DNA from: a virus
Length of the DNA stretch: 22,145 nt
Strand: one strand, 5' to 3'
Virus record (IMG/VR): IMGVR_UViG_3300046002_001658
Location: 1-22,145 of that record
The notes beneath the pieces were generated by a model. The model did no database searches. It saw nothing but the letters and a program-made list of their open reading frames with translations, and was not told the DNA's origin. Positions 44-22,145 of the stretch are shown here, piece by piece. The stretch's first letter is position 1; every line of letters starts with the position of its first letter. A program made the translations under genes and the position numbers.

Positions 44-814
44 GCGGCAGCAGGGGCCCCTGCAGGGGTAGCTTCTGCATTAGCTAGCGGGGTAAATGCT
101 TTACCGGGTGGTCAAAACGCAATATCTGCTGTAGTTAATTATGCCAAGGGTGCGACTAATGCTATCCCGGGTACGGCTGCTATAGGAGCGCTACTTACTA
201 ATACAACCACAGCAGTTACAAACGGGATATCATTACCTAATTCAATTTCGGGTGCAGTTGGCTCTATAACTGGAGCTGCTTCTAATCTATTGAGTAAAAC
301 TACCGGAGCAATTTCAGGCGTATTTGATAAGCTCAAATCAGGAACTACAAGTTTAGCATCAGTTGCTACAGGCGGACTGCCAAGTGCGGACGCCGCTCAA
401 CTTAATGCTGCTGTCGCCGCGCTCGGATCCGGTGGAGCATTCCCTATTAAATTACCTACAGTAGGATTGAACACAACAGATAGAAGCGCAATAGATGGGC
501 AAATTGGATCATTATTGGGGGCAGGTATTCCCAAGCCCAATTTCTCTGGAACAATTTCTGCCGCAGCAGTTTCGGCTCAGGCAGCTAATTTAGCAAAAGC
601 AGAACCAATCGCCGCAGCACTGGCTGAAATACAATCATTGCAGGATAAAGCTACCGTTGCTAAAGATCGATTTCAGGAGCTATCAAACACGTTACCACAG
701 GGTGATCCTCAAATTGCGGCAGCTAGCCAAGAACTAGCGTCATTGACCAAAGAGGTAACAGACAAGCAGTACGCTGAATTCGTAGCTAGTCAACCACGCG
801 CATACCGTATATAA
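2..814 (+). CDS. 3' end of an Ala/Gly/Thr-rich virion protein, unidentified
   Basis: The reading frame is open from the first bases of the window, so the true start lies upstream. Leu-98 of the visible part is a TTG codon at 290, but it is not the natural start because the frame continues well before it. It ends with tandem TAA codons at 812-817. The visible 270 residues fall into two parts. The first is low-complexity Ala/Gly/Thr/Ser with an AVAAATG heptad repeated at the very beginning. The second, from about 540, is more helical and richer in charge and Gln (ELASLTKEVTDKQYAEF near the end), possibly a coiled coil. No transmembrane segment or enzyme motif is visible. It sits directly before gene 25, where related phages carry baseplate hub or spike genes such as gp5 or PAAR proteins, so a tail or baseplate role is plausible. 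I do not recognise the family; it shows none of the octapeptide beta-helix repeats of T4 gp5. Confidence 0.75.
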   Translation, partial: AVAAATGAVAAATGAAAGAPAGVASALASGVNALPGGQNAISAVVNYAKGATNAIPGTAAIGALLTNTTTAVTNGISLPNSISGAVGSITGAASNLLSKTTGAISGVFDKLKSGTTSLASVATGGLPSADAAQLNAAVAALGSGGAFPIKLPTVGLNTTDRSAIDGQIGSLLGAGIPKPNFSGTISAAAVSAQAANLAKAEPIAAALAEIQSLQDKATVAKDRFQELSNTLPQGDPQIAAASQELASLTKEVTDKQYAEFVASQPRAYRI

Positions 815-831: not shown

Positions 832-1281
832 ATGCCATCATATATCGGATTCAGCACAATAGGCGCAAATAAACCAAAGACCACTAACGCAGGTGGAGGG
901 GTTGATGGTGGTGTCGGTACCATCTTAAAACCTGTCAACACGGGGAAGAAATTTAGATTGGTTGATTATCCACTAGTTATACAAGACCTGATGAATGCGT
1001 TGAATATTAGGCAAGGACAAAAAGTAGGACAACCGGGATATGGTACTTCACTGTGGTCTTTTGTATTCGAACCCAACACCGCTGATGTTCAGTTTCAAAT
1101 AGAAGCAGAAATTCGTAGAGTAGCCAGTCTGGATCCTAGACTACAACTAAATTCAGTTAAAGCCTTCCCGCAAGAACACGGAATATTGCTTGAAGTTGAA
1201 ATGTCGGTCACCCCATTCAATAATGCTCAGATATTGAGTGTGTTCTTTGATAGCAATACCAGTCGAGCCGTAATACAATAA
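832..1281 (+). CDS. 25: Baseplate wedge subunit gp25 (TssE-like fold)
   Basis: The product is 149 aa; T4 gp25 is 132 aa. gp25 is an inner baseplate wedge protein. It binds the gp6 dimer and helps set the handshake that nucleates sheath assembly; TssE is its type VI secretion counterpart. The family signature is visible: RLVDYPLVIQDLMNAL at residues 42-57, then the conserved QPGYGTSLWSFVFEP at 67-81, where FEP leads into the amphipathic helix QFQIEAEIRRVASLDPRL. The DPRL at 101-104 corresponds to the family's 'EPR' region, and an alternating beta C-terminus follows. The first ~35 residues are a Gly/Thr/Lys-rich extension. The start is fixed at 832: an in-frame TAG lies at 826-828 and no earlier initiator is available. 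There is no good Shine-Dalgarno. The gene follows the upstream stop by 17 bp. Confidence 0.93.
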   Translation: MPSYIGFSTIGANKPKTTNAGGGVDGGVGTILKPVNTGKKFRLVDYPLVIQDLMNALNIRQGQKVGQPGYGTSLWSFVFEPNTADVQFQIEAEIRRVASLDPRLQLNSVKAFPQEHGILLEVEMSVTPFNNAQILSVFFDSNTSRAVIQ

Positions 1282-1338: not shown

Positions 1339-4300
1339 ATGGCGACAAGCGCAAGACAATCTTCCCTATTCGGTGTAAATGACTGGAAAGCTATTTACCA
1401 AACATTCAGAGAAGCTGATTTTCGTAGTTTTGATTATGAAACGCTTCGTAAGAGTTTCATCGACTATCTGCGTGTCTATTATCCGGAAACGTTTAATGAC
1501 TTTATTGAAAGTTCAGAATTTATTGCAATTCTGGATGTCATGGCGTTCATGGGTCAAGGTCTCGCATTTAGAAACGACTTAAACGCCAGAGAAAATTTCA
1601 TTGACACTGCTGAGCGTAGAGACTCCGTTGTTAAACTAGCCAACTTAGTAAGCTATACTCCTAAACGAAACTTAGCTGCGCAGGGATATTTGAAAGTAGT
1701 TAGTATTCAAACCACTCAGAATATCTCTGATTTGAACGGGGTTAATTTAAGCAATCTTCCAATATTATGGAATGACCCGGCAAACGCTAATTGGGCTGAA
1801 CAATTTAATACTATTATTAATGCTGCATTGATAAACACACAGCGGGTAGGTCGCCCGGGCAATCAGGCTGATTTATTAGGGGTGACTACTAGTGAGTATA
1901 CTCTTAGTATTCCGGCGGATAATATCCCTGTAGTGCCATTCACCTCAACAGTAGACAGCCTCAATATGAATTTTGAGCTAGTAAGTGTTACAAGTGTAGA
2001 TAAAGATTATATATATGAAATTCCACCGATCCCATCGGGTAGATTTAATATGCTATATCGTAATGACAAATTAGGATATGGTAGTCCAAATACCGGATTT
2101 TTCTTTTACTTTAAACAAGGTGGCCTACAAAATTCTGATTTTAACTTAGAGCAGCAGATTACCAATCAGGTAATCAACATAGATATTCAGGGCATCAACA
2201 ATACTGACACATGGCTATATCAGCTTAGCGACAACAATGGCACCAGCGCACTTTGGAAACAAGTTGAGAATGTCTACGCCGATGCTTATCTGCAAACTGA
2301 AACTAGTAACAGAGCAATCTTTGCAGTAACTTCTAGATTTAACGATCAAGTAAGTTACACGTTTGGTGACGGGGTATTCTCGGAAATCCCAGTTGGAGCA
2401 TTTAGGGCATATGTTCGGGCTGGTAATGCGCTTACCTACACCATCGACCCGTCAGAAATGCAGGGCATCTCTATAACATTCTCGTATCTTAGCAGAGTGG
2501 GTAGAGTGGAACAATTAACAGTTGGGCTAGAATTACAGCTGCCAGTCTCTAACGCTCAAGCAAGAGAATCATTAGCAAGCATTAAACAACGGGCACCTAC
2601 TAGATACTACTCGCAAAATCGTATGGTCAATGGAGAAGATTATAATAACTTCCCTTATACACTATACAGTTCAATTCTTAAAAGCAAAGCTATTAATCGT
2701 AGCTCGATTGGTGTTTCTAAAAATCTAGACCTACTTGATCCAACGGGAAAATATTCAAGTTTAAATTCGTTTGCTACTGACGGTGCAATTTGGCAAAATG
2801 ATACCACCGATAGTCTAGCATTGACTATTAATTCTATCGGTAACATTATCACATTCCTGACTGACACCTTAGCTTCCACATTGTCATCTAATCGTGCGAT
2901 ACAATACTATACGCAAAATTATGCTACGTATTCAGTTGACGATTCAGGAACTAATACAGTTTATTGGCAAACCAGTTCAGTAGACGCTAGCTCGGTAACA
3001 GGATATTTTTACACTAAAGTAAACAATGTCAACACTCCGATCGGATTGGGTACGTACTCCACAACCAATGTAAAGTACATCACAACCGGCGCGCTTCTCA
3101 AATTTACTGCACCTCCTGGATATTATTTTGATAGCAATAATAGATTGGTAGCTGGCATTGCCGGCCCGTCAGATATTACTTCGATATGGACAACAGTTCT
3201 TAATGTTATTGGTGATGGGTACAATAACGGGTTAGGTGGGTTTACTAACGGTACTGGGCCAGTCACGTTAAACGGATATGTACCATCTAGCACACCGACA
3301 ATTACGGTATTACCATCGTTTGATAATACGTTAGCGAACGAGATTATACAGGAATGTATTACTAGAATGGAGTTACAACAGAACTTCTCACTGGTGTTTA
3401 ATAACGCATTAACAGTGAATCAGCTTCGTTGGAGTATCAATCAATACAACGATGTAAATTACTTTGTCAACTTCTTAAGTTTAGGTGGTAATAGATATAG
3501 CATTACATCGCGTTCATTAGCATATTATTTTGGTAGTGTAAAAGATACTAGATTCTCATTTGAACGAGATAAATTGGTGTATGATCCCTTCTCTGGAAAG
3601 ATTTTACAAGATTTTATTAAGGTGCTAGCTACTAATACACAGCCTAGTTCTAATTATCCACTAGCAACTTCTGTTTCGGCTAACATTGTTGGGCAGACTG
3701 TTGAATCAGATGGATATATCAATGATTTTGAAGTAGAGATATCAAGCACCGATATTAATAATCGTGGCTTAATTTTAAATCCTACATTCTTTCAAACAGT
3801 CACTGGATATGTATCTGGTAATACAAACATTGGTATATATGTCTTTTTTGAACTAATAGAGGACGCACTAAGTCTGTCTAGATATCAAATAGTGCCGTCA
3901 ACTGATGTAGTTTACACCTATCCTACTAATACCCAAGTAGAAGTTTCCAAGTATGATTATCCACTAGGACAGATATTCTACGCATATGCTGAAAATATAT
4001 TTTATATTACTGTGCAGGATATTACGGTATCTACGCCGTATTATGTCTTAGTACCGCAGCCTCAATATTCTACTAAACCCGGGCGACAAGGTCTGCAGTT
4101 CCAATATCGGCACAACTCTAATAACACCACTCGTATAGATCCAGCAACTACTAATATTATAGATTTGTATGTAGTAACGCAAGCATATTATACAGCATAT
4201 CAAAATTGGATACAAGACACTACAGATACAATACCACAACCAAATCAGCCAACTATTAGTGAATTGAATCAAGAATACGGTGAAGTAAATAATTACAAAA

Positions 4301-4707
4301 TGCTGAGTGATAGTGTTATTTTAAACAGTGTTGTCTTTAAACCATTATTTGGTCCTAAAGCAGCACCTGCACTTAGATCAACTATCAAAGTAATTAAAGC
4401 CTCTAACACGAACGCTAGTGACAGTGAAATTCGTAGCGCAGTACTTACGGCTATGAATAATTATTTTTCAATTAACAATTGGAATTTTGGAGATACGTTT
4501 TACTTCTCAGAATTAAGTGCATATCTGCATTCGGAAACAGGGGAACTAATTAATTCAGCAGTATTAGTTCCCAATGACCCAACAATGGCTTTTGGAGATT
4601 TATATGAAATTAAATGCGCACCGTACGAAATATTTGTAAACGCGGCCACAGCAAATGATGTGTTAGTTATCGCAGCCCTCACCCCAGCACAATTACAAAT
4701 AAGATAA
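1339..4707 (+). CDS. 6: Baseplate wedge subunit gp6, enlarged (baseplate J family)
   Basis: In T4, gp6 dimers form the ring that joins the wedges around the hub and contact gp25, gp53 and gp7. The product here is 1122 aa against 660 in T4. The N-terminus is typical: a helical segment with [19 protein letters not shown], then '[20 protein letters not shown]' and '[19 protein letters not shown]', matching the start of gp6-type proteins. The core follows with [12 protein letters not shown] near residue 342 and '[16 protein letters not shown]' near 426-441, landmarks of the baseplate J-like region. The C-terminal ~130 residues ([17 protein letters not shown] ... [17 protein letters not shown] ... 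VPNDP) match the end of the family. The extra length is mostly Thr/Asn/Tyr-rich beta sequence at about residues 500-1000. The start ATG has the ribosome binding site noted at 1326-1333. It ends 8 bp before the giant gene. Confidence 0.93.
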
Positions 4708-4715
4708 GTACTATT

Positions 4716-7700
4716 ATGGCCACAAGAATTAGAACATTATCATTTCTTCCGGAAATATTCCAAACACCCACTAACGCTCAATTTTTGAGTGCTACCCTCG
4801 ATCAATTGGTATCGCAACCAAATACTAAAAAAATTGAAGGGTATATCGGTAGTAAATTTGGATATGGCATTAATGCCAAAGACTATTATGTAACTGAACC
4901 TACTAAAACTAGGGTTGATTACCAATTAGATCCGGGTGTTGTTTTTACTAAACCCAACGAATCTGTTGCTCAAGATTTTATTAGCTATCCCGGTATATTG
5001 GATGCTCTTCAAATAGAGGGTGGCCTCACTGAAAACAACAACAGACTATTCAATAGTGAATTCTATTCGTGGGATTCATTTACTAACTTAGATAAGATAA
5101 TTAACTTCAACCAATATTATTGGCTTCCTGAAGGTCCTGATCAAGTTACTGTATCTACTGAAACTGTATACAGCAGTACCGCATATGCTGTAACTGATCT
5201 AGCAAACGGATATCAAATCTCTCCTGTGGGTACGGCCGGCGGCACTATAAACCCAACCTTGACAATGCTTCGTGGTGGGTCATATACGTTTGAAGTTAAT
5301 CAAAATTCTGCTTTTTGGATACAAACTGAACCGGGCGTTAGTGGGTATAGCCCTACTCAACCAAATATATATACACGTGAGGTATATGGTGTATCAAATA
5401 ACGGAGCAATGAATGGCATTGTAACGTTCGCTGTACCTAGTAAAACTGCACAAGACGACCAGTATAATTTTCCCGGGAACAATGTTGTTGGTGTAGTAAG
5501 CACATTGCCGTATAGCGACATCAATGGACAACTACTATCGCAAGTGGGAAACATTGACGGGATAACTTCTCTGGACGGGCTAACTGTAATGTTTTACAAT
5601 ACAGGATATCCATCTGAGATTGGATTTGTATCCAACTTCTTTGACTATACTAATTATGATGAAAATAATAACCTAGTTCCAGCAGAAACTATCACAGTGA
5701 CCGATACCAGTGCAACTGGAAATTTAATCACTTGTAATTCTACTGCAAATCTATCAGTAAACGATACTATCACCTTTACCGGAACTACATTCGGTGGAAT
5801 ACAATCTTACTTTACCGGCACACCTACAGTAATAGCTGCCGGGTCGTTTGCTATCGGGCAAGAATATGCTATCACTACTATTGGAACAACGGATTGGATA
5901 GCGGCAGGTGTAACAGCAAGTGCTGACATTACAGGCTCTATTGCTGGATACGCATTAACAGTTACTACAGTAAACTCAGGCTCGCTAGTTATAGGACAAA
6001 CACTAGCAGGATTTGGAGTTACCGCAGGTACAGTAATTGTTAGTTATGATTTAGCTACAGATACATACACGCTAGATCAATCACAAACTGTAGCTAGTAC
6101 TACTATTTACGGGTATGATATTGTAGCGGGTAAGATATTCACTGCGATAGCTGCTGGATCTGGCACCGGCAATGCGACTGCCTTTTTACCAACAATATAC
6201 TATATAAGTTCAATTTCGTCATTGACAGAATTTACTGTCTCCGCTCTGTTAGGCGGTAGCGACGTAGTACTAACCACTGCATCTGGATCAATGATCGGTA
6301 ATATCAATCAAGGTTTATATGAAGAGGGATATTACACTACAGTAAGTCAGACCTTTTACACAATTACTTATGTCGGTGACCCAACGGACCCTGTTATAAG
6401 ATTGATCCCAAGTAGCTCTATACCTACTAATGAAAAGATAACAGCGTTGTATGGTACACAATGGTTGAATAGATATTTCTATAAAAATCCAGCCGGCGCC
6501 ATTGTGTTAATCCCCTACATAACTGCGCCTCTAGATATATTGTATTACCAAGATGGAACTTCAGCTAATAAAGTTGGCATCATTAGATTGATCGAGAGTA
6601 ATGTTACTAACACCTTGGATGTTGATGCTGATATTTTGGGTAGAAAGAATTTCACATCATCAACCGGGATTGTATTTACAAATGGATTGAAGGTGGTATT
6701 TCAGGGAGACATCGTTCCCGCAAGCTATAAATCAGGGCAATATTATGTTGAAGGTGTTGGCAGCGCAATAGAACTAGTACCGGTTTCTGATTTAATATCA
6801 CCCGAAAGTTTTACATCTAGCACATACATACCATGGGATACTCTAGCGTATGATATTGGAAATTGGGAAGGTAACTCGTATGTTCCGGTAACACCCGATT
6901 ATATAACCATATCTAGAAATTCATTAGACAAAAATGCCTGGTCAAGGAGTAATCGTTGGTTCCACGTAGACGTAATCAACGCGGCAGCACTGTACAATAA
7001 CAATCCCAATTCAGTAAGTGTTTATGCTACCGCAGATAATAAAGCTAAACGCCCCATTATCGAATTTTATCCTAACTTACGGTTGTTCAACGCTGGAACA
7101 GAAGGTAAGTCGCCCGTTGATTTTATCGACACCAGAACTATAGATGCATTCTCTTTAGTAGCAGGACAACAAAATTACTATCCTGACGTTACAGTGTACA
7201 CCGCGTATAGCGGAACTATCGCATCTACTGATTATGTATCCGCTAGAATAGCTACTGATACTATCGGTACCGTGGCTCTTCCCGCAGTTTCAAATACTAT
7301 TACTTGCGATAGCACGGTTGGTTTTAGAGTTAATGACCTGATAGTGTTTAATGCGGTTGACTTGGGACCAGTATTTGGAGGGGTCGTAGCTGAAGCAAAT
7401 TATTATGTAAAAGAAATTATTGATTTAGTTACATTCACTATCTCATCTGAACAAAACGGTGATGTATTTGCCTTGTCAAGTTCGTCGGGGTCAATGCGAT
7501 TTTATTGGACACCACGCAGCACTGAAGTTGTAGTAGACAACACCGACGTAACAGGAACATTTGCTCTGGGGCAATATGTTACCGACTCAACTAATTTAAT
7601 ACCAACCAACGCGCTGATAACTGCGATCACCGTAACTACTAGTCAAACGATATTTGAAGTATCGTGGGATGCAAGTTCAGGCAGTTTCTTCGCCGGCACT

Positions 7701-10700
7701 TCCACTGCGTCGATTATAGCAACTGATACCACCAATGACACCTATGCGTTATTTGACGGTGCTCGGGTAGCGTTCACAGTAGATACAGATAAAAATGTAA
7801 GAGATAAGATTTATGTATGTCGTTTTTCGACAGTTACCAGCACTACTGATCCGGTAATTACGTTGACTGAGGCTACTGACGGACAAGTGTTAGTTAATCA
7901 ACAGACCGTTGCATTACGTGGATATTTTAATCAAGGTAACGAATTCTATTTTGATGGTGTGGAATGGATTAAAACACAACAGAAAACTCAAGTAAATCAA
8001 CCACCCTTGTTTGATGTATTCGATGATAACAGCATAAGCTTTGGTGACGCAGAAATTTACACCGGAACTTCGTTTAAGGGAAATAAATTATTCGCATATG
8101 GATTGGGTTCCGGACTTGTAGATGGTATTCTTGGATTCCCTATCCGATACAGCTCCATTGACAACGTGGGTGATATATCATTTGACATATCTCTTAACCT
8201 AGACACATTTAATTATGTTAATGGTTCTTCACCGATCACACAAAAAACCAACACTGGTTATGTGTACAATTACCCAACTCGCGTTGTGTATGAAAGACAA
8301 TTGGGATGGCAGACAGCGATCTCACCGAGCGTACAATATCAAATTTTTGAATTCTCATATAGCACACCATCACCTACTTCAGTGTATATATGTGATATTG
8401 CGCCAATGGATAGTACCACAACAGTCTGGCCTACTATTCAAGTTTACATTAACAATGTACTACAAACCGCTGCAGATTACACTGTTACTACCACTAGTAA
8501 CAGTACTACTGTTACGTTCATTGATCACGCGGTACTTAACCCTGTTCAAATATTAATATTAAGTGACCAAGTTAGTCCTACCGCTTACTACAGTATTCCA
8601 ATTAACTTAAATAACAATCCACTAAATGCAGACGTTACCACAGCAAACGTAGGTGATATTAGAGGACAATATCAAAGTATATTCTATAACAATCCTGACA
8701 CAACTGGAAATGTATTTGGTTCGAACAATTACCGTGACTTGGGTAATGTAGTTCCATATGGCACCCGTATTATTCAAAATAGCGCATCGTTGGTATTACC
8801 TGGCACATTCTTGCGAAAACAAAATCATAATTTGTTTAACTCGTTGATGTTCAACAGCAGAGAATATATTAAATTTAAAACTCTATTAGTTGATACGGTT
8901 AACAATGCGTCTTATTCACAGCGGTATGATCCTGCAACAATGTTGGATGATGCGCTGGATCAGATTGTTGCGTCTAAGACTGAGGAGCAGCCCTTTTTCT
9001 GGAGTGATATGGTGCCATCTAAGGCCCCGTATATTTCCAATTCTTATTCATTCGCAAACAGTTTAGATGTAAGCATTTATAAATTAAGCACCACATACGA
9101 TTTTACTAAAGCAAATTACAATGGCGTTTTAGTATATCTCACACGAACAACAATCGGTGTCACTTCTGTTAAACAACTAATTGTAAATGTTGATTATGTT
9201 ATCAGTACTGATTCACCGTCACTAACGGTAACGCTAGATTTACTACCTAATGACATTATCACCATTAACGAATACAATCAAACATATGGTAGTTATATAC
9301 CTAACACACCTACTAAATTGGGCCTATACCCTGCATATACCCCGGGCGTAGTGTTAGACAGTGATTATGCTCAGCCTACCTATTTTATTAAAGGGCACGA
9401 TGGTTCTTACAATAAGTTGTATGGTAACTATGATGCGACTTTAGAATTACTGATAGACTTTAGAGATCAAGTATTGTTAGAATACGAATTGCGGGTGTTT
9501 AACAACTTAAAGTTAAGTTCAATTATTCCTATTAAAGAATATGAAGTGTTGCCGGGCTTTTTCAGAGAAACCGACTATTCATACAATGAATTCTTAGAGG
9601 TGTATAGCGCATCATTCTTAAATTGGGTTGGACAAAATAGAATCAATTACAAGAGACAACTTTACAACAAGAATGACCAGTTTACTTATAATTATTATCA
9701 AAGTGGAAATAAGATAAACAAGAAACCTATTGAGCAAGGCTATTGGAGGGGAATTTATCAATATTATTATGATACTACTACACCTAACAGTACACCTTGG
9801 GAAATGTTAGGGTTTACCGAGAAGCCAACTTGGTGGCAAGACAGATATGGTCCAGCACCGTATACCAGTGATAACTTGATTTTATGGAATGATTTAGCAC
9901 AGGGAATTGATTGGAATAACGGTGTACCTATTGTAATCAAACAAGCTATTAGACCTGAACTGTTACAAGTATTGCCGGTTGACACTGAAGGCAATCTAGT
10001 ATCACCCCTAGATTCAATAGTAGGCAGTTATAATAGTAACATATTCCAACGTGATTGGAAAGTGGGAGATGAAGGCCCTGCAGAATTAAGCTACAGAAGA
10101 AGTAGCTCTTGGCCCTTCGACCTAATGAAAATATTAGCTTTAGCTAAGCCTGCTCAATTCTTCAATTTAGGTGTAGATTTAGATAACTACAAATATAATC
10201 TTGAATTTGACCAGTATCTAGTTAACAACAGAAGCCATCTTGTTATTAGTGATGTTCAAATATACGGATCAGGTACTGCTAAAACTAGTTATATCAATTG
10301 GATCGTTGATTACGAAAAACAAATTGGAGTAGATGCTACTCAGAATATCACCAACTTGTTATTTAACTTGGATGTTAGATTGGTATATCGCTTAGCGGGA
10401 TTTAGTGACAAAACATTATTAAAATTCTATGTTGAAAAAGGCACAGCAAATAATAGAAATGCGTCCTTATTAATTCCAGACGAAAGCTATGCGGTATTGT
10501 TATATGACAATCAACCTTTTAAGAAGATTGTGTATTCAGGCGTTGTCATTCAAATAGTTGACAGCGGATATACTGTATATGGCAATTCACAAACTGCTGC
10601 ATATTTCAAAACATTAAAGCCATTGGCTAACGGTAATACAAGCATTACTGAAGTGGATGCATTACGGGTAAGAACGGCAAACGACTACTCAACTCAAGAA

Positions 10701-13700
10701 GTAATCGTACCCTATGGTTCGCTGTTCTACACAGTAGAGGAACTAGCACAGTTTCTAAGAGCATATGGAGCATATCAAGAAGCTCAGGGTATGGTATTCT
10801 CATCTATTGAAAATGGTTTAGAAGTTACCTGGAATCAAATGATAGCTGAACTGCTATACTGGGCGCAAACTGGATGGGAAGTTGGCAGTGTGTTGACTAT
10901 AAATCCGGCCGCTAGCACTATGGAAATAAATCGTGACGGGTACATTGTTCAACCGTTAACAATGCGTGAAACTAACTTTGTATTGAATCAGAATTTATAT
11001 CCAATTCAATCAATGGATCTTGCAATTGTGCGCGACGAAACGCAATTTGTTATCAAACCATTAAATGCCGGTGACACCCTTGCGTATGGTCAATTTAATA
11101 TACATAGCATTGAGCATGGCATTGTTTTTGATAACATTACCCTGTTCAATGATGTCATCTACAATTTAACTACAGGTTTGCGTCAACTTCGTATTGTGCT
11201 GCGTGGAACAAAAACTGCTGACTGGAATGGTACGATCAATGCTGCTGGATTTATTCTCAATCAAGATAATATACAAGAATGGAATCGAACATTAACTTAT
11301 ACCAAAGGTGTTATTGTACAGTATAAAAATAAATACTGGACTGCGTTACGAGTAATACAACCTAGCGAGACATTCAACAGCAATGACTGGAAACGGACAG
11401 ACTACGAACAAATTCAAAAAGGGTTGCTACCAAACTCAAGCACTCGCTCATATGAAAGCACATTGTACTATAATGTTGACAAGGCTAACTTAGAATCAGA
11501 TGCTGATTTATTAAGTTTCTCGCTTATTGGATATCGCCCACGTGATTATCTTGCGTTAGCCGACTTAACTGACATTACTCAAATTAATGTATACAAGAAT
11601 TTAATTAAGAACAAAGGAACACTTAACGCTGCTAGTGCGTTCAAGGGAGTTAATCTACCGCAGGGTGGAATTAATTATGAGATTTATGAAAATTGGGCAA
11701 TCAAATCTGGCGAGTTTGGCGGGGTTCTCAACAGCAATTTCGTAGAGTTTAAGATTAATGAAAACTATATGACCGGTAATCCCTCAATTGTGGGATTAAC
11801 TAATGGTGTATACACGGATGGTGTGCAACAAGAAGTACCACTGTACTCACTGTATAACTATGGTAGACCAGTCTTTGATCCAAATGTTTTACCACAGATT
11901 TCATCAGCATTGCCACCAACTTTATTGCCCGATGCAGGCTATGTCAATTTTAATGATGTAAAAATGTCAGCTTTTTATTACTCGCAGTTAGCTAGCGCAG
12001 TTGATAAAAACGGTAAGGTTGTGCCTATACAAGATTTTTATGTTCGAGATTATCTTTGGTTAGCAAATTATCTCGAACAATGGCAAGTATACACACCTGC
12101 TTCTATTGGTCAAGTAATTTATGTAAAGAATAATTTGAATGGTACTGCTACAATAACATTCAATCAGGCGCATAACTTAGTTCAATATCAACCATTCGCA
12201 ATCGTAAACTTCAATCCAGCAGTTAATGGATATTTCTTAGCATCACTAATTGTTGATCCACAGCGAGTATTAGTAAATCTAACTCTTGATGCAAATACTA
12301 GAAACATCACTGGGCAAGGTATTGGACTGTTGTTCCAATCTCAGCGTGTAGCTACCCCAGCCGACATCGCCACACTCCCACTCTTAAGCGCAGAGTTCAC
12401 AAAAAATACAGTATGGGTAGATACGAACACTGATGGTGATTGGGCTGTATATAGAAAGAGTATTAATTACCAGTACGATACTGAAACCATTCGCCCAACA
12501 GGCGTGACCTTTGGTAGTGCGGTAGCATACACTTCAACACTAGGATATTTGGTTGGCGATGCTCAAGCAGGTGAAGTCTATAGATACACCTTTAACGATT
12601 TGGCTAACGACTACCAATTGATTCAAACAATCACGCACGATACTTCATTTGGAGCAACAATCGCATATGCCGGTGATATGTTCTTCATATCGGAACCAAG
12701 CAGCGCGGCTCCTAAAGTATATGCCTATCAGTTAAGCTCAACACTCACTAATGATGATTTAACCTTGTTCCAAACTGCTATTGCTGCCCCTGCAAGTTCA
12801 ATCAACTGGGGTAAGGCTATAGCTGTGTCAGGTGATACAAATTGGGTATACATATCTGACTATGATAATCCTTCGACACCTAACTTAGTCTATGTATACA
12901 GAAAATCACAGACAACGGATGAGTATGAATTGTCAACTACCATCACAACAAGTGGGCTAGTCGCGGGTGATAATTTTGGTTACTCTATTGCAACTGATTA
13001 TTACGGTGATACTGTTATCATAGGTACCCCTAACCAAGACTATAGCCCTACAATTGATAATTGGGGATATACATATGTGTTTTCTAGGGCGGTGCAGAAT
13101 ATAGAAACATCGCAGAATAGTATTCCTGATGTTGCACAAATATTTCAATTGGTATGGACACCTAGCACCACAGTTACTGATGTTAGCGCAACAGATGCGA
13201 CAACAGATGTCATAACTTGCACTAGCACTAGTGGATTTGTAGTTGACATGCCGGTACTATTCTCCGGAACTGTGTATGCTAGCAGCAACATTTCTCCAAG
13301 CACAATCTATTTTATTGAAAGTGTTGTTAGTGCAACTGAGTTCCGTATTAAAACTTCGGTAGATGCTATAATCCCGTTAGCTTTAGGCACTAGTAGTGGG
13401 AGCGGGATGATAGCTAACGTCCAGTCTACTCCTATCTATGTATCAGTTAATGGTACATTAGTAGACAACAGTAATTATGGAGTGATAGGTAATACATTAG
13501 TATATCCTAGCACATTGTCAGCCGGCGATATTGTTACTATAAGCGGAGATCAGTTTACATTAGTTCAAACTCTAACTTCAGAGGTAACACCAAAAGTCGG
13601 AGTTCATTTTGGAAATAGCGTAGATACTACCACCCACGCATCTGAAGTTATCATTGGCGCACCGTTCGAATTGACTACGCAGACAGAAGAAGGCGCTGTG

Positions 13701-16700
13701 TATCGCTATACCAATGGTGGTGGAAAATATGGAATGGTAATCGGTACTACTGACACCAATGTTACCTCTACCAGAACACTGTTAATTAATAATTTTGCTG
13801 TATATATTCCGATCGGAAATGCGACAGTTGCTGCTAATTCTATTTCTCAAGCAGGTATACCAAACATTGTGGCAACTGCTAGCAATGGTAAACTGATTAT
13901 ATCATTAATAAATTATGATTTAGCTATCCCAAATGAAAAGCTATTGATAGCTGTGGTGGATACTACCACATTAACTGAGTTAGGTATTTCAATTTATACT
14001 CAGACACAAACTATCAACTGCCCACACATTACTGGACCTACACAATTTGGTACAGTAGTTAAATTCAATGAATTTGATTCCTTCGTAGCTAGTGCCCCGA
14101 CTGGTACTAGATATGCGGCTACGACCTTTGATTTCACTGATGATGAAAATTTAGACAATGACACGGTGTTTGATAATAACGCAACGCAATGGATAGACCA
14201 GTTTGTTAATGCAGGTGCGGCGTATATGTTTGACTATCTAGCGGTGTTTGGTGAAAATCTAGACAACACTGGTAAGTTTGTATATTCGCAAAGTGTGAAT
14301 GACGTAAATCTAGAGTACGGTGCTCAGCCAATGTATGGTCAAGCAATGGATTTCAACAACTATCACGTTATTGTTGGTACCCCTGCATTTAGACCTGGTT
14401 ATGACAATGGGCTAGTAACATTGTACACTAATAGTTCAGGAATCACTGATTGGTCTGTATATAGAAGCTCAGCAGCAGTAGTTGACATCAACCGAATTCA
14501 AAACATACAGTTGTTTAGCGCAGAAACTAACAACACGCTAATTAATTTAGATTTCATTGATCCGCTTCAAGGGAAAATATTAGGTGCGGCCCGCGAAAAT
14601 ATTGATGTCATATCAAACTCAGATCCGGCTCATTACAATAACACTACGGTTCGTAGAGGGATAATCTGGGGAGCTGAGCACGTTGGTCAACTGTGGTTTA
14701 ACACATCAACAACGCGATTTGTAAATTATCACCAAAATGATGTAACCTACAATAGTAGATACTGGGGCGCAGTCTTCCCGGGGAGTAATGTCACGGTGTA
14801 TAGTTGGATTGCAAGCCCAAATCTACCGGTAAATTATAATGGCCCTGGTACTGTGTTTAATGTAGATTCATATGCTATACAGTATGTAGAGACAGCTAGT
14901 GGTACATTATCACCGATATATTATTATTGGGTGAGAAATACCAATATCATTTTTGAGAAGACTGGAAAGACCTTAGCAGATTCAGTTGTTGAATCATATA
15001 TTGCTCAGCCTAGAAATTCAGGCATAAGTTGGTTTGCACCATTGTTGCCTAGCGCATTTGGATTGTATAACTCTGCGGCCTATATTAACGCAAATGACAG
15101 TGTTCTTCAAATGGGATTTAGCACCGGCACGAATGATGATGTAGCACACAGTCAATATAGTTTAATTAGAGCCAACTACGCTGATGATTTCTTACCGGGA
15201 TTCCCGGGCATAGGTGGAACATTAATTCCTGAATCATTATACGACCGATTGCTAGATGGATTGTGTGGAGTAGATGAATTTGGAGCAGTTGTACCCAATC
15301 CATATCTACCCAAAGCAGTTCAAAATGGAGTGCTAGCTCGACCAAGACAAAGCTTCTTTATCAATAGATTTCTTGCGCTTAAAAATTATCTAACATATGC
15401 TAACACTATTTTAGCACAGTTTCCAATTACTGAAACAAGACAATATTCTTTCTTATTTACTGAGGGTCCAATAAACCCATCAACCGGTACTCCATTCTTT
15501 GTCACTGCTGATTATTGGGAATATGCAAATTGGTGGGCAATTGGTTACAATGATAACACTAAGTCTGCACTGCAAGTGCCACTCTATGCCAATCTACTCA
15601 CGCTATCAGTAGCTGTTAATACTATTGTTACCGTCGCTGCAAACAGTACTGGTAATGCAGAGACTTATATTTACAATACTGATGGGACTTGGACTCGCAT
15701 TGGATTAACGAACGGTACTATTAAATTTAAATCTGATTTGTGGGATTATGCCACTGCACGGATAGGATTTGGAGATAACTTCTATGATACCAATCCATAT
15801 GATGCATATCCGAGTGAAGAGACTAGAAATATCTTACGAGGATTGAACGAACAAATTTATATAAACGATTTACTAGTCTTTAGAAATAAGAGTCTAATAT
15901 TGATGTTTGAGTATATCCAAAGCGAGACTATTGATTCACAAAACTATTTGCCTTGGTTGAATAAAACCTCATTCATTGATGTGTCACACACCATTCGTGA
16001 ATTGCGTCCTATCAGTATATATCAATCAGATAACCAAGACTTTTTGGCAGGATATTTAAATGAAGTAAAACCTTACCACGTGGTAATTAAAGAGTTCTTA
16101 TTTAAATACACCGGTGCTGATGTCTATGCCGGAGATATCACTGATTTTGATTTGCCTGCAATTTTTGATTCATCAGTTCAACAATTCATCACCCCTGAGT
16201 TGGTATACTCTAACCCTAGCTTAGTATCACAGTTTTTACCTAGTAGTCCGATTTGGTCTGATCCAAGTTATATTTCTTGGTATAATAATTATGGGGTAAG
16301 CATTACTGGACAAGACAATGTTCAGATAGCTATATTGGACACCTATATTGCGTTGAATACAACAGCATTCGCTATATCAAACGCTCAGGGAATACCTATT
16401 AATGGGGTATTTAAAATTGGAAATGAACTTATCGCTTATGCAACGGTTGACAGATCAGTCAATGTGGTCAGCGGCCTAACTCGTGGGGTTAGCAATACAC
16501 CTATCACCAATCACATTCCAGGAGAGTTAATATACATTGATTTACCAGCAGTGTTGTTATTAGATGGCGGAAGAGGCTATTCTGAGCCACCGCGTGTAAT
16601 AGCTTATATTGATACGACAATTTACCCAGCACCATCACAGCCTGCGGTATTAGAAGCAGTAATGACATTAGATTCCGTATTAAGTATAACCGTAATTGAC

Positions 16701-19700
16701 CCGGGTCAAGGATATGCAGTATTACCTCAGATTATAATTGATTCTGCTATATCAAGTGAGTTTGCTAGTACAGCAGTCAGTCCAAGCTATAATACCATTC
16801 AATTGTACGCCCCGTTGCTACAAACCGGAGACTTGATCAAGTATACTGTTGGAATTGGTAGCACTGCGATTGGTGGATTGACAAATAATCAATGGTATTA
16901 TGTTAATGTATTAGAGACAGTACCTACTGTTACCGTAGCGTTGTATTCCAATTACAGAGATGCTCTCCAGGATCAAAATAGAATTGTATTATTCTCGACT
17001 GGTACAGGAACTACTCACGCACTAAGTGTAGGAGCTAAAGCATCTTGCATATCCAGTGCGGCCCCTATCAGAGAAAATAATATTGCGTTACGATTTGACA
17101 GAACTACATACAATTCACAAGTAACTGATTGGGAGATGGACCTATATTATGGTTCATACTTTGCCGGATTCGCAGGTGCGTACAATGACCCACAATCAGT
17201 AGCCAGTTCTTCTATACAATTACAAAGTACACAACCGGCTATTAGCACTATTCTGTCCAGTGCCCAAGGGGTAGGCTTTGAAATTGTCGATGTTCGGAAT
17301 GAGCAAACAGTTTCGTATTCTTCACTGATACGCCAAGTTGCTGAAATAATTGCGTTAAATCACGCTATTCGGTTAACACCTCTTGATGATGGCTCTAATA
17401 ATCCAAATGCGTCGGGTTCTACTATTGGTTTCTATGTTAATATGCCAATTGTATTCAAAGGTGCTGTGTTAGGTGGATTGGTAAACGATACAGTGTATTA
17501 TGTTAATAGTATAGTAGATGCTACAGACTTCACTATTTCACAATCAGTAGATGGACCTATCTTTGCTCTGACAGGTGGTACAGTTAGTGCTGCTGGTTTA
17601 GAATGTTCAGTTGGCGAAGTAACTAATCTTGCAGTACTTACGATTAATTATCCAGGCATCTTAGAGGTTACTGCGACTACGACAAGTACTAACACTATAA
17701 CTATTCCGGTTACCTTGGTGGGGACAGGTGGCACTAATGGCTTCTATGTTAACTTACCGGTATTCTTTACAGGAACCGTATTTGGTGGGATAGTTGAAAA
17801 CGAAATATATTATGTTACAACTGTACTCGATGAGCAAACGTTCACTATCGCTGAGTCCAAAGATCCAACAATGTTAGATGTGTCCGCTACTGCTGCTAGC
17901 ACAGACTATGTTACAATATCAACTGATACCCAATCTCTAAAAATAAATGATCCTGTAATTTTTAACTCAATGGTAATACTTGGAGTGGATGTTACCGTGT
18001 TTGGCAACATTGTTTCAGGCACAACATATTATGTTGCTAGCATTCCTAACAATAATTCAATACAATTATCTGCTGTAGTTAACGGATCAGTATTTCCATT
18101 AGCAGATCAGGCTGCTAGCGTAGACCCCTTGCTTCCTACTAACGCAGTATTAACCAGTCAACGAAATGTTGTTCAGTTGTCTACCGCAACAGGAAGTATG
18201 ACTATTAATGTGTCTATCCCGGTTAGCCCTGGTCAGATTAACGGTCAACAATTTACTTTATACAACACTTCAGAGCAATATCCTGACTTGGCAGGACCGG
18301 TTAGTTCATTAGTTACGCGAGAGATACAATCAACTATTGATACCGTAGATAGGGTTGCGATCAGTAGCTACAGTGGTGGATTAACAAACATATATGATAA
18401 TTTTCCATTACAGGTTGAAACAAATATTGGTGGCCTAGTAACAGGAACAACATACTATGTAGTAGATTCTGGATACATTGAGGTAGACGTTACTTCTACT
18501 TCACCATCTATTGCGTCAGCGGTAATTACCGGAGACATACTATCAGGCGCGCCAGTAAGCTTACTAACAGTTACCGGTGTCACATCGGGCGCGGTAGTTC
18601 CGGGCTGTTCTTTGGCCGGCGGCACCGTCATTCCTGGCACTAAGGTGGTCTCACAAATAGCCGGCACACCTGGCGGGGTAGGCTCTTATTTTGTAACAAA
18701 CTCACAAAATGTTATAAGCTCAACACTTACTTGCTCTCTAAGTGCGGTAACTTGTGACACGACTGATTCATTATACATAGGTATGCCGATTATATTCTCC
18801 GGTGTACCGCTAGGCACTATCGATCTCAATGTAGAATATTATGTTAGACATATTGTTAATGGAACACAGTTTGTGCTGACTAATACACCGGGAGGGGCAA
18901 TAACAACCCTGACGGTAGACAACGGAGTAATGACAGGTACCGGATCACCGTACATACAAGTATCAACAAGTCTTGGTGGAAGTGTAGAAGTATTAACTAC
19001 CGAGACTGCGGTAGTTAATTTAGTCCAGTATCCGCTAACACCACCACTATTCAGTGTTAGTTATCGTATGGGTGGCTATCAGGCTATTATCACTGATTCG
19101 GGTACAGGATATGCTATTGATAATACCATCTTAATATCAGGCAGTAGCGTGGGAGGAACAACTCCGAATAATGATCTTACCCTAACTGTTGTGGCAATCG
19201 GGACTAGCGGTGAAATAACAAGTGTTATCAGATCAGGCACAGTGCCTGGTATTTCTGACAGCTATTATTTGCGAGTAATTTCATCTACTGAATTAGCTGT
19301 ATTCTCAAATCCGTTAATGACTGTACCGGTATCAGGTATTGATTTCCCCTATATAGGCATAATCTCAACTACGGTAACCGGAACTACTAGTGGATCAAAT
19401 AGTATTACAGTTAACAGCGTAAGTGAATTTGCAGTTAATGATGCAGTGGTGTTTACTGGATCAGTAGCCGGAGGATTAATATTAGGACAAATATATTACG
19501 TGCTCACTGTATCACCGCTAACTGTTGGTACTGTTCCCAACGATGTTGGTTCTGTTGAAGTGTTGTCTACTACTTTATTGCAAGATTTCACAATGGCTAA
19601 GTATGGCTCATATGCAGTCTTACCGGAACCGTTCTATTTTAATCAGAGTATTGTTCGGTATAACAATAGAGTCTACAGTTGTCTAATTAGCAACCACGAT

Positions 19701-22145
19701 TCTGAATTTATATTTGGTAAGTGGCAGTTGTTAGATTCAGGTGATCGCAGATTAAATGCTTTAGATAGAGTTATTGGTTACTATCAACCGACTGCTAATA
19801 TGCCCGGCTACGACTTAACTCAATTAGTTAGCGGGATACAATATCCAAACAGCACGTATAAAGGCAATGCGTTTGCCCCTGACGAACAGTTCCAAATAGA
19901 TACTATCTTACAGGATCAACCATTCTATCCCACTGAAGTTGATATGAAAGCGATAATCTGGACCGGAACAAGTTACTTTAGTCCTGCTGAAACATCAACG
20001 TATTCGGGTGTTGTGTCGGGCAGTGACGGTGAAAATTGGGTTATTGATAAACTAGCCAACTCAGTGTTAAGTCTGACTGGTATTATATATGTAAATGGAA
20101 TATACCTTATCACGACTACTAACATTGCTACTCCTATCTTACGTAGTACTAACGCGATCACTTGGACTGCTGGAGGCCGCTATATACCCACAGCTTTGTT
20201 ACCGAACGAGTCAGTAACCTTAAGCTCATCAGGTATGGCATTGAATTCTGTTGGGTATCGTGACGGAGTGTACATTGTGGCCGGCAGCAGCATTGCATCA
20301 AGTGTTGACGCATCTATCTGGACAAATAGATTTACGTTCACAAATGGATTGGTTAACACTTTGTACGGCGTTAAGGGAGTGAGTACAAACTCATATTATG
20401 GATTTGTAGCCATAGGTAAAGGGCAGATTCCTGATTATTCAACCGGACTAACTGAAACTATAGATGTAAATCTGGTGCTAACTAGCTTAGACGGTATCTC
20501 ATGGTCACAAAGCCCGGCTTATAGTTTTAATGGGTTTTATAGCATAACGGACAACGGTAATATTATGGTTGCTGTTGGAGAGAACGGTGTTATTTACACT
20601 AGTCAAACTGGCATTGTTTGGCTAGGCGTGAATGAAGTTGCAGTTGTTAGTGTAAATTCTGACACTAATAATATCAACGTTTCTAATACTGATGGATTCT
20701 TGGTAAATGATGAGATTAGATTCTCTAACTCTTTTAACGTAATATCGTCTTCTGTCACCTATTATGTGGTGAACATTATTACCCAATCACAACTTCAGAT
20801 TAGTACTTCATTGGGTGGACTGCCAATCACGTTAAATGATGTTAATCCAAGCACAACAACTTATATGTATTTGTATCCAAGTACAAGTGATCTAAATGAT
20901 GTGTTATTTGATAATTCTATATTTATGGCCGTCGGTAATGACGGGTTAATTAGAACATCGGTGGACGGTTATGTATGGGTAACGCAAGTCTCTGGTACGC
21001 TAGAAAACTTAAATAGTTTGGTATATAACGCGACTGCGGCTACGTGGACTGTGGTAGGTGATAACAACACTATTATTCTAAGCTCTGATAATGGAGTAAC
21101 TTGGACTAGCTCTTCGATATTTGTTGTAGTACCCACTGTGTATGATGTACAGGGTGATCCGTTTCAGGCTGGATATGGTCCTGAGGAACTAGTAGCCGGC
21201 ATCATAAGCGATAACATAACGTTGACAGTGGCTACTAGACCTGGCACAAATTGGCCAGAAACTGTATATCAGCACGTGGGTTATAACGTGCTGTCAATCG
21301 AAATACAACCAACCTCAGCCACTCAGACTGATTACAGTTTTGATTTAGTAGCACAGACCCCGGCGCAACTTGCAGTGTTTGTCATAGACGGCATTACTGG
21401 TACGAGCACCTCGATATACGAACCTGATTACAGTATCGATTGGATTACTAATGTGATAACTTTAGCTATCCCGTTATCTTTCACTCCAATCACTGATACA
21501 TTACGAATTGATGTGTATGAAACAGGAAACGGAAACCAATTGGTTAAGGCTAATACAAAGACAGATCCAATTCGTGTTAATCTAACCACAGGGTGGAATG
21601 AAATATATGTAAATTGTAACTATTCTGCTACTATATTCTCCGGCAGTGGCGTTATTAGACCTGGAACGGCACCCATAGCAGTTGAAGCAATAAAAACTAC
21701 TGCGATAGAGAATACTATTACTTGCGTGGGAGTAAAGGATTTTGTACTTAATGACCCGATAACATTCCAAGGTACTACGTTTGGCAACATATTAGAAGAT
21801 ACTACCTATTATGTTAAAACAATTAGCACAGTAACTAGTAGTATTACTGTATCAAGTTCATATAATTTCACTTCAGGTACTGCAGGTCCTACTTTTGTGG
21901 TTACAACTGCTGTGGGTTCGATGTATGTAGTTATTGCTGTTGGATCGGGCGCGCCGTGGGCTGAACCATTAATGTATCACAATGGTGTGAAATTATTGCA
22001 CGGGTTAACTGGAACAGTCACCAGAACTAAAGCAACAAATAATGCAGTAACCTGTAACACAACAGGTGGGTTGGTAGTAGGTACTGTAGTAGTCTTTAGT
22101 GACACTATGTTTGGTGGGATTATTATACCGCAAACAACATACGTC
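4716..22145 (+). CDS. Giant modular virion structural protein, 3' end outside window
   Basis: One frame stays open for 5810 codons and runs off the window. ATG 4716 is the first initiator after the in-frame TGA at 4656, and there is no clear Shine-Dalgarno. It begins [20 protein letters not shown] with no signal peptide or membrane helix. In order it has: unique start; a 'YTFEV...FWIQT' cupredoxin-like segment (residues ~180-254); a nested module block (~324-530); unique scaffold to about residue 2590, including a Tyr/Trp-rich stretch (9600-9850); an FG-GAP propeller (~2599-3239); 'YLNEVKPYH' (~3790); a module-dense zone (3885-4850); a CBM5/12-like segment (~4970); an Asp-box propeller (~5100-5465); and more modules to the end. 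Cys is rare; Thr, Ser, Asn, Val, Gly and Tyr dominate. It follows gene 6, the T4 gene 7 position, so it is probably an outer baseplate or tail component fused to receptor-binding domains. I see no residue-level proof of gp7 homology. No frameshift is seen. Confidence 0.9.
5253..5477 (+). other. Cupredoxin-like 'YTFEV...FWIQT' domain in the giant protein
   Basis: Residues ~180-254 read [15 protein letters not shown], then FWIQTEPG, then [14 protein letters not shown] and a final YNFPG. This L-x-R-G-x-x-Y-x-F ... F-W-I-x-T ... G-x-V-x-F-x-V-P pattern recurs in phage tail proteins and resembles a copper-protein beta-sandwich. The Cys/His/Met ligands of a copper site are not visible, so it is likely structural. 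Confidence 0.55.
5832..6185 (+). repeat. 'GTTDW ... GSGTGNA' phage module, split
   Basis: The first part is [20 protein letters not shown] plus WIAAG. The second part is [20 protein letters not shown]. Joined, they match the familiar phage tail pattern 'G-x-x-Y-x-I-x-x-x-GTTD-F/W ... G-x-x-F-T-A-x-x-x-G-x-GTG-x-A'. The two parts are separated by the type-3 module at 5913-6113. Confidence 0.65.
5913..6113 (+). repeat. 'LTVT...SG...VGQTL...SQTVASTTI' module, copy 1
   Basis: The segment carries [32 protein letters not shown], and then [17 protein letters not shown]. This is a recurrent phage structural repeat of the form G-x-L-T-V-T...SG-x-L-x-x-G-Q-x-L...G-V-x-x-G-T-x-I...Y-T-x-x-x-SQTV-x-S-T-T-I. 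It is the innermost of three nested modules. A second copy lies at 18525-18734. Confidence 0.7.
7263..7502 (+). repeat. YYV module 2
   Basis: The unit runs [20 protein letters not shown], then [15 protein letters not shown], then VTFTISSEQ and a terminal SGSM. It carries all consensus landmarks, including the ITC cysteine (codon 7305). Confidence 0.75.
7902..8220 (+). other. Conserved-looking scaffold segment '[13 protein letters not shown] ... GLGSG'
   Basis: Residues ~1063-1168 include [50 protein letters not shown] and [18 protein letters not shown]. This region is non-repetitive and dense in aromatic residues. I have the impression it is a shared core of large aquatic-phage structural proteins, but I cannot verify that here. 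No known fold is assigned. Confidence 0.4.
11101..11260 (+). other. Unique scaffold segment '[20 protein letters not shown]'
   Basis: Residues ~2129-2181 contain [20 protein letters not shown], then [20 protein letters not shown] and AAGFIL. It directly precedes the first CBM5/12-like segment and belongs to the large non-repetitive scaffold. No enzymatic motif is visible. Confidence 0.4.
11295..11402 (+). other. Possible carbohydrate-binding (CBM5/12-like) segment 1
   Basis: Residues ~2194-2229 read [20 protein letters not shown], then [13 protein letters not shown]. The pattern Y-x-x-G-x-x-V-x-Y-x-x-x-x-W ... W resembles the short chitin-binding-like modules often found in tail fibres. It is short and may be only a structural beta hairpin. 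Confidence 0.35.
13167..13421 (+). repeat. YYV module 3, inserted in the FG-GAP propeller
   Basis: The unit runs [48 protein letters not shown] and a GSGMI ending. YYV is replaced by YFI, and the FGG loop is altered. It lies between propeller motifs 4 and 5. Confidence 0.7.
13711..14035 (+). other. Insertion between FG-GAP motifs 5 and 6
   Basis: About 108 residues follow the YRYTNGGGK strand and precede FGTVVKF. They include [41 protein letters not shown] and ELGISIY. The I-N-x-x-x-V...N-S-I-x-x-A-G-I-P-x-V-x-A-x-x-x-x-G-K-L-x-I pattern recalls the beta-alpha-beta insert common in flagellin- and tail-type proteins. It is not a YYV module. Confidence 0.4.
15963..16110 (+). other. Scaffold segment '[20 protein letters not shown]'
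   Basis: Residues ~3750-3798 carry [20 protein letters not shown] followed by [18 protein letters not shown]. It is helical, more charged than its surroundings, and free of repeats. It ends the central unique scaffold before the module-dense region begins. Confidence 0.4.
16368..16538 (+). repeat. '[13 protein letters not shown] ... LTRG ... H..G' phage module
   Basis: The segment reads [38 protein letters not shown] and [10 protein letters not shown]. It matches the frequent phage structural module G-x-x-x-I-G-x-E-x-I-x-Y...L-T-R-G-x-x-x-T...H-x-x-G. Only one copy is seen. Confidence 0.6.
16554..16745 (+). repeat. Paired 'GxGY..P' repeats
   Basis: Two half-repeats, [17 protein letters not shown] and [15 protein letters not shown], flank a linker with [11 protein letters not shown]. 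The G-x-G-Y-x-x-x-P-x-I/V-x-I pattern is a well-known tandem beta repeat of phage tail proteins. Here the first copy is GRGY and the second GQGY. Confidence 0.65.
16779..17045 (+). repeat. YYV module 4, divergent
   Basis: The unit has [20 protein letters not shown] followed by [13 protein letters not shown] and an [13 protein letters not shown] ending. The GGL loop and WYYV are retained, but the ITC and FTG elements are missing. Confidence 0.55.
17361..17609 (+). repeat. YYV module 5
   Basis: The unit reads [40 protein letters not shown] and FALTGGTV. Landmarks are F-K-G, GGL, YYV and F-T-I-S. It starts a group of five closely spaced modules (5-9) that runs to about 18944. Confidence 0.75.
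17667..17882 (+). repeat. YYV module 6
   Basis: The unit reads [33 protein letters not shown], then [20 protein letters not shown]. It is closest to module 5: both share GFYVN-[ML]-P-[IV]-[VF]-F, suggesting a relatively recent duplication between these two. Confidence 0.8.
17883..18122 (+). repeat. YYV module 7
   Basis: The unit reads [49 protein letters not shown] and VFPLADQAA. It abuts module 6 without a linker. Confidence 0.7.
18336..18524 (+). repeat. YYV module 8, cut short
   Basis: The unit reads [40 protein letters not shown] and VDVTSTSPS. After YYV only a short strand follows, and the usual F-x-I half is replaced at 18525 by a type-3 module. Confidence 0.55.
18525..18734 (+). repeat. 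'LTVT...SG...[10 protein letters not shown]' module, copy 2
   Basis: The segment carries [40 protein letters not shown], then [18 protein letters not shown]. It is the same fold signature as the innermost nested module at 5913-6113 but a more complete form with the GTPGGVGSY turn. It sits between YYV modules 8 and 9. Confidence 0.7.
18738..18944 (+). repeat. YYV module 9
   Basis: The unit reads [40 protein letters not shown] and [13 protein letters not shown]. It carries the conserved T-C site (codon 18753), F-S-G, YYV and F-V-L. Confidence 0.75.
19083..19265 (+). repeat. 'GTGY ... [13 protein letters not shown]' phage module
   Basis: The segment reads [20 protein letters not shown] followed by [18 protein letters not shown] and [11 protein letters not shown]. 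This closely follows the recurrent tail-protein pattern G-x-GY-x-x-x-D-T-x-x-I-x-G...GG-x-TP-x-ND-L-T-x-T-V. Confidence 0.7.
19368..19573 (+). repeat. YYV module 10
   Basis: The unit reads [20 protein letters not shown] followed by [18 protein letters not shown] and [15 protein letters not shown] and YYV are intact; the last strand is degenerate. Confidence 0.75.
19605..19737 (+). other. Possible carbohydrate-binding (CBM5/12-like) segment 2
   Basis: The segment reads [20 protein letters not shown], then [14 protein letters not shown]. The Y-x-x-x-x-I-V-R-Y-N-x-R-V-Y-x-C-L-x-x-H-x-S-x-x-F-x-x-x-x-W pattern is close to chitin-binding-like modules of phage and bacterial surface proteins. It is the better of the two candidates and lies just before the Asp-box propeller. 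Confidence 0.45.
19960..21120 (+). other. Seven-motif Asp-box (BNR/Ycf48-like) beta-propeller
   Basis: Seven motifs of the S-x-D-G-x-x-W type end in Trp codons at 20037 (GSDGENW), 20163 (RSTNAITW), 20319 (SVDASIW), 20502 (TSLDGISW), 20619 (TSQTGIVW), 20976 (TSVDGYVW) and 21102 (SSDNGVTW). The last is a near-perfect Asp-box. Most repeats contain a G-x-x-Y/F-x-x-V strand with A-V-G-x-N/D-G, as in [13 protein letters not shown]. Intervals are 39-61 residues except the fifth (119), which holds YYV module 11. Seven motifs fit one seven-bladed propeller of the sialidase-type superfamily. No sialidase catalytic set is identifiable, so a binding or structural role is more likely. Confidence 0.65.
20628..20880 (+). 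repeat. YYV module 11, inserted in the Asp-box propeller
   Basis: The unit reads [40 protein letters not shown] and [16 protein letters not shown]. It begins three codons after the fifth Asp-box Trp. Removing its ~84 residues restores a normal blade interval of about 35 residues. Confidence 0.75.
21687..21935 (+). repeat. YYV module 12
   Basis: The unit reads [40 protein letters not shown] and [10 protein letters not shown], with a terminal GSMYVV. It carries the ITC cysteine (codon 21723) and a clear GSM end. Confidence 0.8.
22011..22145 (+). repeat. YYV module 13, cut by the window end
   Basis: The first half is present: [37 protein letters not shown]. The window ends inside the Y-V motif, so the module, and the gene, continue outside. 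Confidence 0.75.

Follow-up and report, generated by a model that had tools for sequence, protein, structure and literature searches.

A probable three-level nest of small insertion modules in a giant phage virion protein, and its alleles among relatives

In a giant phage virion protein, residues ~326–527 (about 324–530) are arranged as Y{G{L}}: a module L splits a module G, and the G{L} unit in turn splits a module Y. Here Y denotes the YYV module, G the GTTDW/GSGTGNA module and L the LTVT...SQTVASTTI module. We consider it very probable that this stretch is a three-level domain-insertion nest of small self-folding modules within a virion protein of ~6,500 residues.

Architecture and junctions of the nest

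The DNA analyzed here, hereafter the window, is a virus record of 22,145 bases, in which baseplate wedge genes are followed by a giant frame reaching up to the window end (Table 1). The frame is kept throughout ORF 4716–22145, and the protein is complete in the near-identical record G001 (about 6,520 amino acids). The window phage is a freshwater one and, because the giant frames of its relatives reach 7,347 codons and their contigs 335 kb, probably a jumbo phage. A further frame rich in Ala, Gly and Thr, open at the window start (2–814), matches a tape-measure-like PHROG only weakly (E 0.0025), and upstream of the gp25-like gene two contigs that are otherwise 98–100% identical differ by a 105-base, in-frame-sized indel (L038:146–150 versus L039:989–1098). 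Elsewhere in the giant protein we noted a partial match to the chitin-binding CBM_5_12 domain, under the curated cut-off (window 11277–11345; E 2e-4), an FG-GAP_2 repeat (12939–13082; E 8e-5), and about a dozen more Y modules recovered by profile HMM, dispersed over 7281–22145 and many of them in tandem near the C-terminal half. A second L module (residues 4610–4671, window 18543–18728; E 2e-11) directly precedes a Y lacking its first strand, and the two may together be another Y whose first loop holds the L.

Table 1. Features of the window; residue numbers are those of the giant protein.
Feature	Window positions	Residues	Strand	Basis or remark
gp25-like baseplate wedge protein	832..1281		+	PF04965 E 6e-9
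gp6-like baseplate wedge protein	1339..4707		+	phrog_10646 E 1e-255
Giant virion structural protein	4716..22145		+	phrog_10938; 5,810 codons, 3' end open at window edge
Y module, segment 1	5691..5828	326-371	+	HMM, Y-only alignment, AlphaFold2 pLDDT ~95
G module, segment 1	5829..5921	372-402	+	HMM 2-31, AlphaFold2
L module, contiguous, innermost	5922..6122	403-469	+	HMM 1-65 E 1e-14, junction scan
G module, segment 2	6123..6191	470-492	+	HMM 34-50, junction scan, AlphaFold2
Y module, segment 2	6192..6296	493-527	+	HMM, Y-only alignment, AlphaFold2

The profile HMMs of the three modules, for which only other viruses supplied sequences (the window and its near copies were excluded), tile the protein as follows: first half of Y, first half of G, whole L, second half of G, second half of Y. 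The two Y matches (hmm 1–48 at residues 326–389, E 7e-13; hmm 29–75 at 475–527, E 5e-8) both overrun into the insert at their inner ends; the G matches cover hmm 2–31 at residues 373–402 (E 6e-6) and hmm 34–50 at 472–488 (E 0.7, this second half being weak when alone); and L matches uninterruptedly (hmm 1–65 at residues 403–464). We located the junctions by sliding an excised stretch along the protein and rescoring the profile. For the inner insert the G score peaks with 403–469 excised, rising from 30.6 to 51.8 bits, and for the outer one, excising ~121–127 residues from a start at 366–372 lifts the Y score from 45.4 to 98–103 bits. Alignment to 22 Y-only relatives places the outer insert at 372–492, that is, 121 residues between SYFTGTPT and TIYY. 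The nested order claimed in a preliminary description of this DNA is thus borne out by independent HMM tiling and junction scanning, as is its statement that each host module becomes recognizable once the inner one is removed. Of the junctions given there, the two points of resumption, PTIYYISSI for Y and VAGKIFTA for G, are right to within 1–2 residues; the two cuts were placed too early, that of Y (after FGGI) by ~10 residues and that of G (after DWIAAG) by 4.

Three other samples have contigs with this arrangement, and two of these contigs differ from the window by an identical set of 7 SNPs; an assembly artefact is therefore excluded. There is accordingly a negligible chance that the pattern is an assembly chimera or an accidental likeness between beta-rich stretches of low complexity: all three modules abound in T, S, G and V, but the HMM E-values with their complementary halves, the sharpness of the junction scan and the recurrence across samples all contradict such a reading.

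We made two AlphaFold2 models, one aligned with Y-only relatives and the other with 55 free-standing G copies. In the first, Y is predicted to fold from two separate segments (pLDDT ~95), with the 121-residue insert at low confidence; in the second, G is likewise predicted to fold from two separate segments (pLDDT ~95). L, which had no usable alignment in these nested models, came out at low confidence. The proposed test for three compact domains in the region thus yields two predicted ones, Y and G, with L at low confidence, and the predicted split-segment folds are what an insertion model demands, unlike one continuous domain. In structural comparisons with VIA, the Y model aligns to small beta domains of Uba6 (Z 8.4, 75 residues, 2.2 Å) and the phi92 endosialidase (Z 6.9) and to the insertion domain of the P22 coat protein (Z 6.0, 78 residues, rmsd 4.7), matches that may reflect no more than a common arrangement. 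A Foldseek search of the nested model against the PDB returned nothing at E ≤ 0.001, the G{L} model gave no VIA match among the 3 chains compared, and matches in BFVD were weak.

Alleles at the site and the order of insertion

With residues 1–315 as query we recovered 399 related stretches, of which 80 were fetched and compared between two conserved anchors. Most of the 80 loci carry Y alone (about 98 residues), and 20 have only a linker of 12–22 residues; counted as distinct relatives, Y alone is seen in 37/59 and the linker only in 16/59. A few loci hold more: Y with a single G, at two loops that differ from the window's (L034 and L064), Y with three G copies (L009 and L049), and Y with another YY-type module (L058). 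Across the relatives G occupies three different Y loops, and the full Y{G{L}} arrangement at this site is found, among those fetched, in the window lineage only. In one closely related pair, L071 with a linker and L072 with Y, the flanking DNA is 91% and 89% identical, and the module takes the place of the linker instead of plainly interrupting it. DNA similarity searches with the site against isolate phages found none. The empty and Y-only alleles, the L071/L072 pair and the split-segment folds together lend strong support to the earlier suggestion of successive in-frame insertions at loops; the order is not the same everywhere, and module-free versions exist.

A midpoint-rooted tree built from the flanks of 59 distinct rows places the window lineage inside a Y clade (99/97) and shows three separate occurrences of Y within a mostly linker-only clade. 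A complex ancestor that held all three motifs, with most relatives having lost the inner parts, would account for the same alleles and finds some room in the midpoint-only root, with which Y may have been either gained or lost in the linker-only clade. Such wholesale deletion is nonetheless improbable, with G and L standing alone in dozens of unrelated proteins, G lying in a different Y loop depending on the relative, and the window lineage being a single tip within a Y-only clade.

Under insertion, the relative chronology that had been read from the nesting is partly established on these sequence comparisons: a G would have received L, and a Y that was already present would have received G, either by itself or as G{L}. 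The precedence of Y over G{L} holds up; G and L may have come to this site one after the other or together, since among the fetched relatives, which include module-free and Y-only versions, we found no Y{G} lacking only L at the window's exact site. For this reason G{L} was possibly built elsewhere and entered Y as a single unit, a variant of the insertion model that we regard as a fair contender, if somewhat unlikely. L often occurs in tandem and also in unrelated genes, as that variant would have it, but no second G{L} unit was seen in any fetched locus, and L298 has Y{G}, without L, at about the same Y loop as in the window.

Distribution, self-nesting and a putative mechanism

None of the three modules, nor residues 313–532 as a whole, matches Pfam up to E 10, and NCBIfam has no family for Y, G or L; L forms part of PHROG profiles. 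An intein was considered and rejected, the same Pfam search giving no HINT splicing domain in residues 313–532. G was recovered in 437 matching stretches of viral contigs but, among some 85,000 species genomes of bacteria and archaea, at only 12 loci, a ratio that is indicative only, because the patterns differed between the two scans. Among the fetched loci we distinguished 51 context clusters for G, 22 for L and 8 for Y. Free-standing copies of G and L occur in many unrelated phage proteins, the contexts of G including T7-type tail fibre/pectate-lyase and GpJ-type tip proteins and those of L including SU10-type adaptor proteins. In L108, L275 and L280, L and YY-type modules also stand in tandem and seem to interleave; by inspection, these loci appear to be from small phages and to encode P22 gp10-like tail proteins.

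Several further nests, with halves that complement each other, came to light, among them Y{L} (L051 and L062), Y{G} (L176) and cases in which G is inserted into its own copies. For instance, L152 has G{G} at hmm 18|20, and L188 and L200 have G{G} at hmm 38|39, a site that is empty in L204, whose flanks are 95% and 89% identical to those of L200. L139 has an A{B{C}} stack of G copies between two Y parts, in which B is cut exactly at hmm 20|21. The record of L051 (G025), with a giant frame of 7,347 codons, contains 12 G matches, versus one in the window's record. The deepest nest seen lies in an 822-codon frame on a relative's 250-kb contig (L297:2671–5136; G004:C1): within a split Y, four successive G heads with the same end position are followed by one complete tail and three further tails (QGNGTAA, QGTGTAV and QGTGTAV). 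Its sequence may be interpreted as the stack Y{G{G{G{G}}}}, with G nested in itself four deep inside Y. Three of the heads, compared in register, are 54–59% identical pairwise and are therefore not fresh tandem copies; slippage keeps some residual probability as a source of the short tails. Within the N-terminal ~2,000 residues of the giant protein, Y accounts for 5.6% of the sequence and contains four of six independent G insertions (binomial P 1.3e-4, post hoc). The loops of existing modules seem especially permissive, and domain insertion is, to judge from such sequences, common in phage structural proteins.

The near-constancy of G across many unrelated genes and its repeated insertion into itself might instead suggest a selfish element acting at the DNA level, comparable to the in-frame mobile repeats known as Rickettsia palindromic elements and spread as DNA. 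This reading is very improbable and largely refuted by the behavior of synonymous positions. Between G copies of unrelated proteins, fourfold-degenerate sites agree at 32.1%, against 30.6% expected from composition, in the same comparisons in which protein identity is 50–80%. These copies are thus not recent DNA repeats, their synonymous sites being saturated to chance level. Moreover, the protein is under strong purifying selection: the median dN/dS among orthologous G copies is 0.11, close to the 0.07 of their flanks, which indicates that G is kept by selection once in place. A candidate for recent exchange of G, the pair L129/L130 with a module more conserved than its flanks, was rejected, as its sliding profile is equally explained by constraint. 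A search for a DNA signature of the insertion process, such as a visible trace of transfer, found none.

Returning to domain insertion, we propose that new copies would stem from rare events in which structural genes of phages recombine non-homologously (illegitimately), and that the survivors would be in-frame events in permissive loops that tolerate a self-folding domain, with the split host module still able to fold from its halves. Judging from the gene context, the modules may serve as exposed accessory domains at the virion tail end, in surface attachment, spacing or stabilisation, and could diversify that end of the virion with the core undisturbed. More speculatively, and at present doubtfully, uncatalogued small phage modules might preferentially enter each other's loops by a biased process that yields self-nested stacks and growth of giant proteins. 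If true, giant virion proteins would grow by recursive module insertion besides tandem duplication. The nests seen here suggest one possible route to the great length of the 6,000–7,000-residue proteins of jumbo phages.

Comparison with known systems

Nested insertion architecture and domain sharing among unrelated phage proteins are both already known (PMC13114784; PMC10684548). In the literature searched we found no account of giant phage proteins whose modules nest in themselves and are polymorphic for presence and absence, and the string GTTDF occurred in PMC full text only in an unrelated paper. The three modules described here add to the known repertoire widespread phage modules that curated family libraries lack.

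The domain mosaicism of phage proteins, in which domains are common to otherwise unrelated and mostly structural proteins, was surveyed by counting shared fragments, and the words 'nested' and 'inserted' are absent from the text of that survey (PMC10684548); unlike its mosaic domains, Y, G and L lie outside Pfam and NCBIfam. Ig-like domains are described as small accessory beta domains in unrelated phage structural proteins (Fraser et al., 2006, as cited in PMC13370021). They share with Y, G and L the character of small modules spread among unrelated structural proteins; however, neither an Ig-like profile nor any other matches any of the three (Pfam up to E 10). Most Ig-like domains of phages are appended, or are single insertions.

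The insertion domain of the P22 coat protein, a six-stranded beta-barrel (PMC11243222), is like the nest in being a small beta domain inserted in a virion protein. We found no sequence link between it and Y, and its structural score is one that common arrangements also reach, with Uba6 and the phi92 endosialidase scoring higher. Rickettsia palindromic elements share with G their in-frame insertion into many unrelated coding genes, but they are DNA repeats, whereas G copies have no DNA conservation beyond that of the protein.

The closest parallel is with the nested A1-B1-C-B2-A2 architectures catalogued from ECOD, which reach up to six levels (PMC13114784). Like Y{G{L}}, these have a discontinuous host domain and an inserted domain that in turn hosts another, and we found here recursive interruption, predicted split-segment folding of Y and G, and insertion-free homologues. 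Against the usual size rule of the ECOD nests, the innermost insert here (67 amino acids) exceeds its host module (~50 amino acids) in size, and, unlike in those nests, a module inserts into its own copies. Nested domain insertion has so far been known mostly as an ancient, fixed architecture. In the present system, unlike the ECOD nests, presence/absence alleles exist among related phages: the same site is empty, holds one module or holds three nested modules, so that the process of domain insertion looks ongoing. Its order, its mechanism and how far it is tolerated therefore become directly testable.
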